Assembly (NCBI GenBank): GCA_023254245.1
Contig: JALQYE010000024.1
Coordinates: 1-34,473 of the forward strand
Source of the DNA: Emticicia sp.
GTDB lineage: Bacteria; Bacteroidota; Bacteroidia; Cytophagales; Spirosomataceae
DNA length: 34,473 nt
Direction of reading: 5' to 3'
Positions 10,340 to 15,938 of this stretch are shown piece after piece; within the stretch, counting starts at the first letter, position 1, and each line of letters starts with the position of its first letter. The position numbers were made by a program, and so were the translations under genes. Under the pieces are notes generated by a model. The model saw nothing but the letters and a program-made list of their open reading frames with translations, was not told where the DNA came from and searched no databases.

Positions 10340-10849
10340 TCATAATTCAACAATTGTGTAAGTAATTGTTGTACTATATGTCTTTGCTGGCAATATAACC
10401 GATATACCACTTAGCGAGTACTCTATCGGAATATTGCTAATGCTGGCATTACCTAATCCTAAACTTAGTATACTAACATTGATTGTAAAAAAAGCAGTTG
10501 ATATATTTGTAATAGTTTGTGCAGTTGTACCGCCACTGGCACTTAATAAGCCTAAAAAACTGGGAGTGCCAGTGCCAGTTCGACGGGCGGTAAGTACTAA
10601 GTTGTTATGCCAATTGGTGTTGGTTTTACTTACTGAAATCTGATAATTTTTTATCGAAAGCAGCGACCCCAATCCTCCAGCAGTTATAAGAGTTTGATTA
10701 GCAGCACTCGTCAATGCACTACTCGAATAATCGCTACCCGTAGTAGTAATAGCAGTAACGGTTGGAATCCAATTTCCACTAACAGAGATTGTCTGTCCTT
10801 TAACTATTAAGTTTAAAGATAACAAAAAAGTAAGTAATCTAATCTTCAT
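10340..10849 (-). CDS. Secreted beta-rich protein, putative distal/tip subunit of pilus-like cluster
   Basis: Signal peptide (MKIRLLTFLLSLNLIVKGQ), Ser/Thr-rich beta-type sequence, C-terminal strand TYSTTITYTIVEL resembling those of the two other subunits; 3 nt after the preceding gene. Confidence 0.6.
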   Translation of the reverse strand: MKIRLLTFLLSLNLIVKGQTISVSGNWIPTVTAITTTGSDYSSSALTSAANQTLITAGGLGSLLSIKNYQISVSKTNTNWHNNLVLTARRTGTGTPSFLGLLSASGGTTAQTITNISTAFFTINVSILSLGLGNASISNIPIEYSLSGISVILPAKTYSTTITYTIVEL

Positions 10850-10852
10850 CAG

Positions 10853-11392
10853 TTAGTTATCTATTAGGGTGTACGTAATTTGAACAACACTTGTTCCTCT
10901 TCTCAAAAGCCCATAATTTGAAACATTGATAGTATAGGTAAGTTTGAAGCCATTGCCAACGCCAACACCAGTATAAGCTCCTGTTATATTATCAAGTACA
11001 ATAGCTGATGCTCCGAGTTTTATTGGACTTGCTACATTCGCTACGATAGTACCCAAAGTACCTCCCCCTCCAACAGCAGTATTTAAGCCTAATTTTAGCT
11101 CTAATCCGTTGGGTACTGTACCAGCAGAAATACTGGCCTCTATTCTTCTACTCACACCACTCCCCACTGCTGAGGTAAAATTAAGCCATTTAGTTTCGTC
11201 TTTTGCAGTTGTTGAGAGAGGCAAACCAGCGGTCGAAGGGCTTCCTAAGCTGAGTGTGCTACTTCCACTTGAGGCAATGCTTATTCGAGCAACGCTACTC
11301 AAAGTTAAACTCACAGAAGCACTCCCCGAGGTCTGAGCTTGGCTTTTCAGGTAAATAAGCGTTGATAATGATATAAGCACGAATTTTCTCAT
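10853..11392 (-). CDS. Secreted beta-rich protein homologous to the 15351-15938 product; putative minor pilus-like subunit
   Basis: Signal peptide; shares VLDNITGAYTGVG..LTYT....YGLLRRGT..VQITYTLIDN with VLDGITSCYTGTG..LTYT....YGALRAGTYTVTVTYTLADN of the 15938 gene. Confidence 0.65.
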   Translation of the reverse strand: MRKFVLISLSTLIYLKSQAQTSGSASVSLTLSSVARISIASSGSSTLSLGSPSTAGLPLSTTAKDETKWLNFTSAVGSGVSRRIEASISAGTVPNGLELKLGLNTAVGGGGTLGTIVANVASPIKLGASAIVLDNITGAYTGVGVGNGFKLTYTINVSNYGLLRRGTSVVQITYTLIDN

Positions 11393-11393
11393 T

Positions 11394-14300
11394 CTATTCT
11401 AAATTTGAAGCAACGCTTTTGCTTAGATTATAGCCCTGTTTGATACTCGACGTGCTATTACCCTCAATACTTCCTGCCTTTGTTTTATAATATTGCACTA
11501 TTCTATTATGCAACTGAAACTTGGAAGATATATCTAACTTTAAAAACATCGCATCTTGCTTCAAGATTAATTTAATAGGTATCGAATCAAATAATTTTTG
11601 AGCTTGATTCGCTTTACTTTTCTTTGATATAGGGCCTGATACTTGCTTTTTTGAAGCAGTAGATAAAATAGATTTTGTTTTTTTATCATCTACATTATTT
11701 TTCTCTACCAGCTTAAAGGTTTTTGGTATAAATTCTATCTTACGTTCAACTGGGCGTACTGCAAATTCAGTTTTTCTCATTTTATCAACCACAATTTCTA
11801 TCGTTTGTTGGGCATTTATTACCGTAAATCTTTCTTGATTATGGGGTAACGTTGCCGAAATTTGCCAAGTTCCAGGCTTTATTTCTTTAAATGAGAACTG
11901 ATTATTTTCGTTTAACTGGCTCACAAAGCTTTCTTTATCATTAAAAAGCTTCACTAAAACAACTGGTTTTTCAGTATAATTGGTTCCTATTTTATCTCCA
12001 TCTTCAAAAAACACCTTTCCTTCTATTCCCCCTGTTTTTATCAATTCTATCTGAATATTGCTTGTACTATCCGATTTTAAATCGACTTCCAATGGCATTT
12101 TCACATTCGTAACTACACCAAATGGAGTAGTACTTTTATCAATTTCCAAATAATATTTATCAGGAGTTAATTTATTGAAGTAAAAATTCCCTTTAGCATC
12201 GGTTAACATTCGTTTTCCGCCTAACTGTACAACAATTCCTTTTTTACTGGTACTATTAGAAAGCCCTAAGATTTGTCCTTTTATATTGCTCAAATTTTTA
12301 TTTTTGGCAATAGGGGCATTGATTCTTAACGTATATTTCAGCGACATGTAAGTGGTTTTCTGAAAATTTGCTGTTAAGTTAGGAATAAAAGTTTGTCCCG
12401 CAGTCAGATTAAATGTATGATTCTTGAGCCTAATCCCCACCGATAAATCCACTAAACTTCTATTTTCGATAAGTTCATCAGGTGCATAATTGTTTCTATA
12501 CGAAAAATTCGCACTAAATTTTTCACCTACCAACATTCGCAATGAGCCACCATAAAAAAATAAATCTGTTAAAGTATTTTCTGTCGAAAACCTGCTTGTG
12601 CGTTGGTGCTCAGCCATTCCGCCAATCCACATCCACGGAAAAAGACGTACTTGTGGTTGTAACGAATTGGCTATTGATTGTCTCGGTACGGTCGCATCAT
12701 TTCGCTGCAAGAGATTTTGGGCGGTTCCGTATTTACCTTCATACCAAAGCATAAATTTGGGGGCGTTTAGGTTATACGCAATTCGGGCAAAATCTTGTTT
12801 AAAATAAAATTTTTTGGGTTCAAATCTATCTTCTCGTTCTTGTTCATTATAACTCAACATTAGATTACTGAACTTACGCAGTTGAAAGTTTGAAAATACC
12901 TGTATGCTTGAATTATAGGGCGAAGTATTAAAATTAATGGCATCTAAACTCGGGTTTATACGAGTAATATTATTGCCAATACCAATACTTATCTTTTTAG
13001 TAATTGCCACCGAAATATTATTGACCAACAAATAACTATTATTATAATAGCCATAGAAGTTTTTTCCAGCATAGATATAATCACTGTGTAGCTGAAATCT
13101 TTTTAGTTGTATCGAAATTCGATTAAAGAGGCCATAATCATATTGTTTTTCTACATTATTTCCTACAGCTTCGGTTTCCCAATTCAGTATTTTTCCTTGA
13201 AATTTAGTAGAAACACCCACTAAATCAGACCAAAATACCCTATTTTTTCTAACCATATATTTCGACATATAATCAATCGAAATTCTAAATTTAGAGCTGG
13301 GTTTCAGGAAAAAGCTACCTCCGAATGTTTCTTTTTGCTCATTAAAAAATCTGGGTTGGATATAAAATCCAGAAAAACCAAGTTTCTTGTATTCATTATC
13401 AATACGTACACCACGACCAAATCGACCAAATTCCATGAGATTATTAAACTGTAATGTGTAATCACCCAATTTGATTAAATTTTGATTTTTAAAATTATAA
13501 TTGAGCGAATAAACATCATAACTTCCTAAAATCGGTATATTAATATTGGTAGGTCCATGAGCCGTAAAATCTAAGAAATGCTTTGATTTCATATCCAGAA
13601 ATCCTCTTCCTTTTATATCAAACTGGATTCCAGAAGTACTTTGGTTGCCAATCATATAATTGGTAAACCATACACCAGCTTCAATAGGAAACCTTAAGTA
13701 AGGGTCTTTTTTCTTGATTTTAGTAGAATATACTGGTAACGAATTAATTATTTGTATTGGGACGAGCGAATCTTTCAAATAAGCTTTGATACCCACTGGT
13801 GTTTCCCATGAATTACTATCACTTTCTTTAATAACTTGTAAAGTTTTCACCTTGATAGATTCATTTGGGTTGATTTTTAACGAATCATTATTTAGCTCAA
13901 TTCTACCATCTATACTTTCAACCTTTATTTTTTCTTGACTATTGCCCAAATTATGTATCAAGTATTCTACTCTCAGAGTATCTCCTTCTTTAACATATTC
14001 AGGAATTAAAACTGGGGCTATTTCTATTCTTCTAATTCTGACAACGTCAATCAGTATTTTCTTTGAGATAATTGGCTCGTCTTTCTTTTTTACATAAACA
14101 TAAAGCGAAAAGCTTCCTGTTTTAGCAAATTTTGGAGTCATTACCGTATAAATGTATTTGAGTGTTTCTTCGTTGATTTGATTTTGTGGTTCTTTCTTGA
14201 AAAGTACTTGCCAATAAGCAGGCACGCCAACCGAAACAATGAGAGGGTCTTGTAATTTAGTAGCACTTTTTATTTCAAAAATAATGTTAAAATGTGCTCC

Positions 14301-14408
14301 AGGAGAAGCCGTTTGGGGCACATTAAGCATGTTTATCTTCAACTCCTCTTGCCCAAAGCAGTCAAAAGAAACTATTATAAAAAAAAATATATAGGTAATG
14401 AACTTCAC
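11394..14408 (-). CDS. Large outer membrane protein: N-terminal Ig-like region, central beta-barrel-like region, C-terminal carboxypeptidase-regulatory-like repeats; usher-like candidate
   Basis: Signal peptide; COG1470-like Ig strands (VPAYWQVLF..., LIHNLGNSQEKIKVES); long Tyr/Asn-rich amphipathic strand pattern (aa about 235-690); two CarboxypepD_reg/SdrD_B-like segments (SNIKGQILGLSN..TDAKGNFYFNKLTPDKYYLEI; GGIEGKVFFEDGD..SFKEIKPGTWQISA). Sits between chaperone-like and subunit genes. Confidence 0.6.
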   Translation of the reverse strand: MKFITYIFFFIIVSFDCFGQEELKINMLNVPQTASPGAHFNIIFEIKSATKLQDPLIVSVGVPAYWQVLFKKEPQNQINEETLKYIYTVMTPKFAKTGSFSLYVYVKKKDEPIISKKILIDVVRIRRIEIAPVLIPEYVKEGDTLRVEYLIHNLGNSQEKIKVESIDGRIELNNDSLKINPNESIKVKTLQVIKESDSNSWETPVGIKAYLKDSLVPIQIINSLPVYSTKIKKKDPYLRFPIEAGVWFTNYMIGNQSTSGIQFDIKGRGFLDMKSKHFLDFTAHGPTNINIPILGSYDVYSLNYNFKNQNLIKLGDYTLQFNNLMEFGRFGRGVRIDNEYKKLGFSGFYIQPRFFNEQKETFGGSFFLKPSSKFRISIDYMSKYMVRKNRVFWSDLVGVSTKFQGKILNWETEAVGNNVEKQYDYGLFNRISIQLKRFQLHSDYIYAGKNFYGYYNNSYLLVNNISVAITKKISIGIGNNITRINPSLDAINFNTSPYNSSIQVFSNFQLRKFSNLMLSYNEQEREDRFEPKKFYFKQDFARIAYNLNAPKFMLWYEGKYGTAQNLLQRNDATVPRQSIANSLQPQVRLFPWMWIGGMAEHQRTSRFSTENTLTDLFFYGGSLRMLVGEKFSANFSYRNNYAPDELIENRSLVDLSVGIRLKNHTFNLTAGQTFIPNLTANFQKTTYMSLKYTLRINAPIAKNKNLSNIKGQILGLSNSTSKKGIVVQLGGKRMLTDAKGNFYFNKLTPDKYYLEIDKSTTPFGVVTNVKMPLEVDLKSDSTSNIQIELIKTGGIEGKVFFEDGDKIGTNYTEKPVVLVKLFNDKESFVSQLNENNQFSFKEIKPGTWQISATLPHNQERFTVINAQQTIEIVVDKMRKTEFAVRPVERKIEFIPKTFKLVEKNNVDDKKTKSILSTASKKQVSGPISKKSKANQAQKLFDSIPIKLILKQDAMFLKLDISSKFQLHNRIVQYYKTKAGSIEGNSTSSIKQGYNLSKSVASNLE

Positions 14409-14445
14409 AAAATTATTGGTCAGGTGGTTATTAGGTACTAATATT

Positions 14446-15237
14446 TTACTCTATCTCAATAGTAAGATTCGACCCAATTAGACCATTGCCGTTATCAGCC
14501 ACTAATACTCCATCATACTTACCTCTGGCTAAATCGCTTACTTCAATCTCAAAATTACTACATTTTTCGGGAAATACTCGGCGAGAACGGGCCTCTAAGG
14601 TCTTTATTTTTCGTCCCTTTTCATCATAAATTTCTAATTGGAGCTTCGTACGAACTGCAAACTGTCCTTCGTTTTTGAGTTGTACTTCAACTAATCGAGA
14701 TGAGATTTGAGTTTTTTTTAGGGTAATATCTTCAAAGTTCATTTTAGGATATTCAAAAGACCCTAAATCAACTAAAATCTGAACGGCATATCTTACCTTA
14801 GATGCTACATTGAGGCCATTTTTTTCATTGGTCGATATAGGGTCTCCAGGTTCAATCATTATCACAACCCAATATGTGCCTTTCTTATCCACTTGTCGTG
14901 GAATATTAATCGTATAAGATAAGTCGTATTGCTCTCCCCCTACCAATTTTTTTTCATCTATGCTTGTCTTAATCCAATTTTTTAGGCTTCGGTCGTGGGT
15001 TTCAGTACTTGAAAAAACTTCATTTTTGCCACAAGCAACTAACATATCTTGTTTATAAGCTACAAAACTTTCGGGTTTATCATTATCATTTTTCAGTGTT
15101 ATTTTCCCAGTAATGGTACTGCCATCAAAACCAGTATGCTGATGTGTGAGTCCATTTAGGACTACAATCGTTCCGAATGTTTGTGAAGACCAGAAAAAAA
15201 ACAAAACAAAATAGGTTGTAACATAATTTTTTCTCAT
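14446..15237 (-). CDS. Periplasmic two-Ig-domain protein, pilus chaperone-like candidate
   Basis: Track ORF starts at 15261; MRKNYVTTYFVLFFFWSSQTFG at 15237 is a better signal-peptide start. Contains DLSYTINIPRQVDKKGTYWVVIMIEP (periplasmic Ig / DUF916-like strand pattern) and a second Ig-like half (VEVQLKNEGQFAVRTKLQLEIYDEKGRKI). Confidence 0.6.
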   Translation of the reverse strand: MRKNYVTTYFVLFFFWSSQTFGTIVVLNGLTHQHTGFDGSTITGKITLKNDNDKPESFVAYKQDMLVACGKNEVFSSTETHDRSLKNWIKTSIDEKKLVGGEQYDLSYTINIPRQVDKKGTYWVVIMIEPGDPISTNEKNGLNVASKVRYAVQILVDLGSFEYPKMNFEDITLKKTQISSRLVEVQLKNEGQFAVRTKLQLEIYDEKGRKIKTLEARSRRVFPEKCSNFEIEVSDLARGKYDGVLVADNGNGLIGSNLTIEIE

Positions 15238-15277
15238 TGTAAGGATGGAATTTATTGGCACAAGTAATCTAATAAAG

Positions 15278-15312
15278 ATATGGCTTAGCTAAAATATATA
15301 ACTAAGCCATAT
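15278..15312 (-). promoter_or_regulatory. Intercistronic stem-loop between first subunit gene and chaperone-like gene
   Basis: Perfect 11-bp inverted repeat ATATGGCTTAG (15278-15288) / CTAAGCCATAT (15302-15312), 13-nt loop, no strong T-run on the minus strand. Confidence 0.65.
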
Positions 15313-15350
15313 TAACTTAACATCTTTATGAATAATACTGAAATCGAATA

Positions 15351-15938
15351 TCAATTATCTGCTAATGTGTAAGTCACTGTAACTGTGTAAGTTCCTGCTC
15401 TCAGAGCACCATATTGAGCGGAACTGAGTGTAGCTGGTAATACATCCGAAGTATAAGTCAACAAGCTACCATCAGTAGCCCCAGTTCCCGTATAACAACT
15501 TGTAATACCATCTAATACCTTTACCGTTGCACCTGAGGCCAATGTTTTATCAGGAGCTAATACGACTTGAGCTCCAGTAGTTGTACCAACAACTCCCGAA
15601 CCCGAAGATGGAGTAGCTGCTGCTACCTTAAAATTTAAGCCATTAGTAAGTCCAGTACCTGAAGCTGTAACATAAATTTTTCTATCAGTTACAGCCGCAT
15701 CCATCACAGATGAATATTGTAAATATAAGTCTGAACCACTCGCAACCGCTCCCGTAATTGGATTACCAGCTACCACCGGAGCTGAATATGTTAATGTCTT
15801 AGTGTTAGCAGTTGTTGGGCTTATTCTAATCATTGTAACTCCTGGAATTACAATACTAACATCATGCGATGTAGTTTGGGCTAATGACTTGGTGCAGATT
15901 CCACTTAAAACTACAAATGCGATAATTATTTTTTTCAT
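15351..15938 (-). CDS. Secreted beta-rich protein (DUF4402-like), putative major pilus-like subunit
   Basis: Signal peptide MKKIIIAFVVLSGICTKSLAQ; Ala/Thr/Gly/Val-rich beta protein; C-terminus GTYTVTVTYTLADN with alternating hydrophobics and Gly 14 residues from the end. Confidence 0.6.
   Translation of the reverse strand: MKKIIIAFVVLSGICTKSLAQTTSHDVSIVIPGVTMIRISPTTANTKTLTYSAPVVAGNPITGAVASGSDLYLQYSSVMDAAVTDRKIYVTASGTGLTNGLNFKVAAATPSSGSGVVGTTTGAQVVLAPDKTLASGATVKVLDGITSCYTGTGATDGSLLTYTSDVLPATLSSAQYGALRAGTYTVTVTYTLADN

Follow-up and report, generated by a model that had tools for sequence, protein, structure and literature searches.

Classical and alternative chaperone-usher pili have been described as confined to the β- and γ-Proteobacteria, and archaic systems are said to span a wide range of phyla (PMC9452303). 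In the Gram-positive WxL cluster (PDB 9i25, 9i1y; PMC10599100), the WxLIP protein, composed of DUF916 and DUF3324 (PF06030 and PF11797), has, according to published AlphaFold2 (AF2) work, a hairpin that gains order when it completes WxL (PMC10599100). Searches of the open-access literature yielded no link between WxLIP and PapD or the chaperone-usher pathway and no chaperone-usher system in Bacteroidota. The window analyzed here, a stretch of 34,473 nucleotides (nt) from Emticicia sp. (assembly GCA_023254245.1, contig JALQYE010000024.1), carries five genes that encode a chaperone-like protein, an outer-membrane protein (OMP) and three small subunits, A, B and C, and that probably specify a divergent chaperone-usher-like surface-fibre system.

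The new point is a chaperone family that stands between WxLIP and PapD and has OMPs of two kinds as partners. A chaperone-usher-like fibre pathway was considered most probable because of its component parts, their order, the homology of the chaperone and the existence of sister systems with recognizable ushers. The initial annotation had proposed a divergent or analogous system of this type; the chaperone fold, the gene order and a Foldseek list headed by ushers give it partial support, while the OMP model has no plug and homology of the barrel to ushers could not be demonstrated by sequence. More tentatively, and with somewhat less than even confidence, these proteins could represent a third branch of strand-donating chaperones, found in Bacteroidota and Deinococcota, that unites the WxL/WxLIP clusters and the chaperone-usher pathway as one superfamily, the branch in the window exporting fibres through a plug-less barrel of 24-26 strands that is unrecognizable as an usher. 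The components of the locus, with lengths in amino acids (aa) and immunoglobulin-like domains abbreviated as Ig, are as follows.

15938-15351, minus strand: subunit A gene, 195 aa, mature N-terminus QTTSHDVSIVIPGV, conserved C-terminus YTVTVTYTLADN, signal peptidase I-type signal peptide; proposed major subunit
15278..15312, minus strand: RNA hairpin with a 14-pair stem in the gap that separates the chaperone gene from that of subunit A; proposed partial terminator or mRNA stabilizer
15237-14446, minus strand: chaperone-like gene, two-Ig, periplasmic, WxLIP/PapD type; 263 aa from ATG, 271 aa if the GTG at 15261 is used
14764..14847, minus strand: chaperone residues 131-158, a low-confidence hairpin loop and G1-like strand with invariant Arg149-Tyr150 (AF2 and alignment); proposed donor strand
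14408-11394, minus strand: OMP gene, 1004 aa, GTG start; outer-membrane barrel, proposed assembly or export pore
13728..14339, minus strand: OMP residues 24-227, two Ig-like periplasmic domains (AF2 and partial profile similarity to the chaperone family)
12318..13700, minus strand: OMP residues 237-697, a run of hairpins forming about 24-26 strands of the barrel, with no plug inserted (AF2, Foldseek and VIA)
11739..12311, minus strand: OMP residues ~700-890, two CarboxypepD-reg/SdrD_B-like β domains (sub-threshold Pfam matches, AF2)
11392-10853, minus strand: subunit B gene, 179 aa, a paralogue of A
10849-10340, minus strand: subunit C gene, 169 aa, a divergent third subunit family

All five open reading frames lie on the minus strand and all five products have a signal-peptide-like N-terminus, as judged by eye, in agreement with the five co-directional secreted-protein genes of the initial annotation; the spacers of 1 nt and 3 nt that it gave for the OMP, subunit B and subunit C genes also follow from the coordinates. 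None of the five proteins had a match above cut-off in Pfam or NCBIfam. The neighbourhood comparison that had been suggested at that stage was made on 28 loci. In 26 of them, from several Bacteroidota families, the genes follow one another as subunit, chaperone, OMP, subunit and subunit, a conservation well beyond chance, and the gene junctions downstream of the OMP were short or overlapping. In the two exceptions, subunits B and C were naturally fused (L062) or the last gene was present and unrecognized (L063).

The distribution of the system is patchy, yet not local. With the 1004-aa protein as query, the OMP turned up in 12 of the 296 genomes searched across the phylum and in 22 of 148 closer relatives, and a profile search located the chaperone in 39 of 292 Bacteroidota genomes; a scan of genome contigs with the OMP returned a single locus only. 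The same genes occur in Emticicia aquatilis (L017), where the OMP is 83% identical to that of the window. A plasmid of Deinococcus deserti carries a subunit, chaperone, OMP, subunit module, whose chaperone matched the chaperone profile (A1) with E 3e-50 and whose OMP matched the OMP profile (A2) over the Ig and C-terminal parts with E 5e-34. The E. aquatilis locus has an additional 177-aa secreted-type gene (L017:3811-4344), absent from the window, between a 192-aa gene and a 540-aa dehydrogenase-like gene.

The nearest known relative of the window chaperone is WxLIP. The alignments used for profile comparisons were small, with 7-34 sequences each, and the profile-profile tests were repeated on mature sequences, from which signal peptides had been removed, and with reversed-sequence controls. 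A hidden Markov model search of solved structures (hmmsearch) gave one significant family, EfmWxLIP1, matched over nearly the full length with E 5e-7. Aligned with nine plasmid WxLIP sequences by hhalign, the chaperone family scored E 9e-11 over 218 columns, and 1e-10 without signal peptides. When matches up to E 0.5 were counted, Pfam WxLIP_PGBD was detected in 12 of 32 homologues and WxLIP_HBD in 7 of 32 (best E 3e-6 and 7e-9, respectively); these were matches of other family members, the window protein itself having neither, and a sister-branch protein, from L080, exceeded the curated WxLIP_PGBD cut-off. The family also has the domain order of WxLIP, a DUF916-like domain followed by a DUF3324-like domain, and, as in the WxL cluster, its neighbours are small secreted β proteins. 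Weak matches of the chaperone to Por_Secre_tail and LpfB were read as generic Ig-like similarity. A plasmid record labelled Klebsiella pneumoniae (CP069367.1, 101758-102450) encodes a protein 74% identical to Enterococcus faecium WxLIP, possibly a case of contamination or mislabelling.

The AF2 model of the chaperone consisted of two Ig-like domains with a mean predicted local distance difference test (pLDDT) score of 87.7. Its best structural match was WxLIP (VIA Z 17.0), followed by FimC, CfaA, SfaE, YadV, Caf1M and CsuC (Z ~12.8-13.7), and the score of 13.7 to FimC places the model within the PapD-type two-Ig fold. Blocks of residues 131-150 had a pLDDT of 56-66 and were followed by a strand at 150-158, at the same position as the hairpin of WxLIP proposed to complete a small secreted β-sandwich partner (PMC10599100). 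Arg149-Tyr150 is invariant in the chaperone alignment, and Asn50, Tyr150, Asn189 and Tyr241 occupy aligned positions that are also kept in WxLIP. Unlike WxLIP, however, the modelled protein ends with the final strand of its second domain and has no C-terminal transmembrane helix, its partner is an outer-membrane barrel rather than the cell wall, and the small partner proteins are not detectably WxL by profile. The two-Ig chaperone-like protein of the initial annotation thus belongs to the PapD/WxLIP fold group, although its closest relative proved to be WxLIP, which had been listed there as a family to check. Members of the chaperone family (E 5e-54 to 6e-62) also occur in three loci of family f17 (L160, L161, L162), where they follow a ~490-aa gene within conserved surroundings and have no recognized barrel or subunit neighbour, an orphan use of the family.

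The connection to PapD-type chaperones runs through two sister families, chap_b and chap_f23. On mature sequences these matched the window family with 1e-25 and 6e-17, WxLIP with 4e-9 and 5e-8, and K-12 PapD-type chaperones with 6e-6 and 1e-4, respectively, and the reversed controls were near chance. The alignment of the sister chaperones with nine K-12 PapD-type chaperones was full length (E 5e-9; 6e-6 without signal peptides; reversed control 0.37), and two sister proteins (L166 and L168) contain motifs, PPRLYF and GIKIF, that by eye resemble those of Arg8 and Lys112. The window family has in common with PapD, FimC and CsuC the two-Ig fold and the position in the operon, but has no direct sequence match to them, and no PF00345 match above cut-off was found in the window chaperone.

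In the sister loci designated f23, a chaperone of this kind is paired with OMPs that show homology to the ushers of K-12 (E 3e-10 over usher positions 128-404, which cover the first strands and the plug; reversed 0.49). These OMPs contain the plug region and fall below the Pfam usher cut-off despite their kinship to ushers. A first subunit in the f23 loci, next to the chaperone, is a DUF4402 protein above the Pfam cut-off. Other sister loci (L080 and L165-L168) encode a protein of 343-478 aa, the last ~135 aa of which hit the profile of the single-domain subunits (E 7e-14 to 1e-23), a two-domain arrangement that is, by analogy, the layout of a tip adhesin.

The OMP of the window was modelled by AF2 (pLDDT 79.7, predicted template modelling score 0.59) as two Ig domains, a barrel of ~24-26 strands, two C-terminal β domains (residues 707-886) and a disordered tail, and this Ig-barrel-β-domain architecture is conserved among its homologues. 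Part of the Ig region resembles the chaperone family profile (P 2e-6 over 67 columns). In Foldseek, FimD/PapC ushers filled the top nine places (E 3e-16 to 1e-10), with E values about eight orders of magnitude better than that of AlgE, and the usher alignment extended through the C-terminal domains. The OMP resembles FimD/PapC (PF00577) in barrel size, the presence of a periplasmic N-terminal part, two C-terminal β domains and the location of its gene beside that of the chaperone, but differs in having ~24-26 strands and no plug, and two Ig domains in place of the N-domain of the f23 and usher type. PF00577 was not detected above cut-off in any of 292 Bacteroidota genomes, that of the window included. 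Of the points raised in the initial annotation, the absence of an obvious classical FimD/PapC signature was borne out, as was, in the model, a large barrel of about 24-26 strands, and a plug, which it had queried, was not. OMPs of distant relatives (L068:6852-10508 and L154:8197-11712) have SPOR (peptidoglycan-binding) domains near the C-terminus, which may attach the pore to the cell wall.

The three subunits are related families (mature profile-profile A-B 3e-46, A-C 5e-6), so that both the paralogue and the third small subunit noted in the initial annotation were confirmed, and they are also related to the subunits of the sister loci. A match of 8e-18 between the A4 and A5 profiles was not counted, as it was an artifact of the natural fusion in L062; with the fusion row removed, P was 2e-5. 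The signal-peptidase-I-like leaders without a lipobox described earlier also held, a crude lipobox pattern being present in 2 of 80 subunit homologues and in none of the three window subunits. The DUF4402, WxL and Spore-coat-U (SCPU) families that had been listed for checking gave no significant profile or Pfam match. Assignment to WxL was rejected, since the C-terminal look-alike spans 15 residues, had P 0.05 without the signal peptide and was accompanied by no WxL Pfam match, and assignment to DUF4402 was rejected because the early signal came from signal peptides and was lost on trimming. The subunit sequences suggest an extended N-terminus and a C-terminal strand.

Subunit genes are multiplied in several loci, with five in L080 and two each in L042, L054 and L055. 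The five copies in L080 (L080:8687-15817, genome G012), each of 180-181 aa, all fall inside an 8-kb stretch next to the genes for the chaperone and the OMP, and four of them have identical N-terminal 30 aa; this array could reflect gene amplification or a variation mechanism. The fused protein of L062 (L062:5154-6170) joins subunits B and C in 338 aa, which suggests that B and C are neighbours in the assembled structure. In distant relatives, subunit genes adjoin those of large proteins that carry a C-terminal sorting domain for type IX secretion (L072:1358-4423, L073:11331-14309 and L157:10717-13710).

The hairpin that follows the subunit A gene had z < -2 in 18 of 20 homologous gaps, compared with 16 of 40 control gaps (p = 1e-4), in a test restricted to loci where the gap was long enough. 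Since the hairpin sequences are unlike between loci, its structure rather than its sequence seems to be kept.

The order of subunit, chaperone, usher-like OMP and further subunits is shared with archaic (σ) Csu-type operons, as the initial annotation had pointed out, and so are, by eye, subunits with partly alternating N-termini and a conserved C-terminal strand. The parallel is incomplete in that the window subunits have no Spore-coat-U Pfam match and the last gene of the window does not encode a two-domain adhesin, although the sister loci have one.

A scheme for strand donation, polymerization and export may be proposed. Subunits A, B and C would be exported by Sec to the periplasm and cleaved by signal peptidase I. 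The 263-aa protein would cap them by lending a β-strand from its F1-G1 hairpin region, which includes Arg149-Tyr150, to the incomplete Ig-like subunit. The chaperone-subunit complexes would dock at the N-terminal pair of Ig domains on the 1004-aa barrel protein, where the N-terminus of the incoming subunit would displace the chaperone strand, and the growing fibre would leave through the 24-26-strand pore. As to stoichiometry, A would probably be the shaft subunit, an assignment favoured because the hairpin follows its gene, and B and C would be minor base or tip subunits.

Several observations weigh against such a pathway, 1) the chaperone family of the window has no direct homology to PapD that the sequence comparison could find, with P 0.01 at an earlier stage and P 0.15 on mature sequences, 2) the PapD anchors Arg8 and Lys112 are not kept, Thr31 and Gln153 standing at the aligned positions, 3) in the OMP model the hairpins run on from 237 to 697 without interruption by a plug domain, 4) profile-profile comparison of the OMP barrel had no significance, with P 0.05 against K-12 ushers and P 0.006 against f23 ushers, 5) a match of the OMP to the f23 OMPs (E 2e-7) involved the C-terminal β domains only and excluded the barrel, 6) on VIA re-alignment the 26-strand MtrB (Z 18.3) scored above the ushers (15.6), and ordinary porins (Z 13-15) were level with the ushers, and 7) the mature subunits had no significant match to the WxL, DUF4402 or FimA profiles. 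Carboxylate anchors other than Arg8/Lys112 are used by archaic systems (PMC4654587). The match in point 5 was not taken to relate the two barrels, and leaving the plug columns out of the usher profiles brought no improvement. Because VIA puts MtrB first and FimD/PapC together with the porins, the size of the predicted barrel is informative but does not single out ushers. Ushers head the Foldseek list, but the model has no plug, Pfam gives no Usher match and homology of the barrel to ushers could not be demonstrated by sequence, so that "usher" is a functional analogy for this protein. With the plug absent and the homology of its barrel unproven, the OMP is not assigned here to the classical family.

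The OMP could nevertheless be a genuine usher whose plug was lost and whose sequence has drifted too far to be recognized, making the locus a full archaic chaperone-usher member. The usher alignments through the C-terminal domains and the recognizable ushers of the f23 systems are consistent with this, but the barrel profiles, the lack of PF00577 above cut-off in the 292 Bacteroidota genomes, the missing plug and the two Ig domains at the N-terminus make it rather unlikely; it overlaps with the preferred fibre pathway, and the two likelihoods are not additive. If the locus were instead a non-polymerizing Gram-negative counterpart of the WxL cluster, the chaperone-like protein would remain permanently bound to the small proteins, with the OMP anchoring or displaying the complex. 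That the closest homologue is WxLIP, proposed to complete WxL and to hold it at the cell wall, and that distant OMPs carry SPOR domains, fits such an arrangement. However, no transmembrane helix or other anchor follows the second Ig domain, the subunits are not detectably WxL, and the multiplied subunit genes, the two-domain proteins with a C-terminal subunit domain and the usher relatives of f23 fit polymerization better, so that we regard a static complex as unlikely.

The structural scores of generic porins, equal to those of ushers, would also suit an ordinary porin or transporter barrel whose only tie to the secreted β-sandwich proteins is a shared operon, but the architecture and the gene partnership are constant across families and in Deinococcus, and the margin of ushers over AlgE in Foldseek argues in the same direction; this explanation is very unlikely. 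Type V (FimA/Mfa1) fimbriae likewise belong to Bacteroidota, whose fibres described so far are mainly of this type, and are surface fibres of β-sandwich subunits. Their subunits are lipoproteins that are matured by proteases, and neither a PapD-like chaperone nor an OMP pore is known to take part. The Deinococcus chaperone weakly matched Mfa2 (21.7 bits, just above cut-off), but 78 of 80 subunits have no lipobox pattern, the window subunits have no FimB/Mfa or type IX secretion tail matches in Pfam/NCBIfam, and a dedicated chaperone and OMP are present, so that type V pili or type IX secretion substrates, already disfavoured, are the least credible of the explanations and can hardly account for the locus.

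If the chaperone-usher-like fibre pathway is correct, a chaperone-OMP-subunit operon in Bacteroidota and Deinococcus would widen the chaperone-usher pathway. WxLIP would then be a relative of the PapD-like chaperones, which would link two systems that have so far been studied apart, and fibre export may work without an usher plug.

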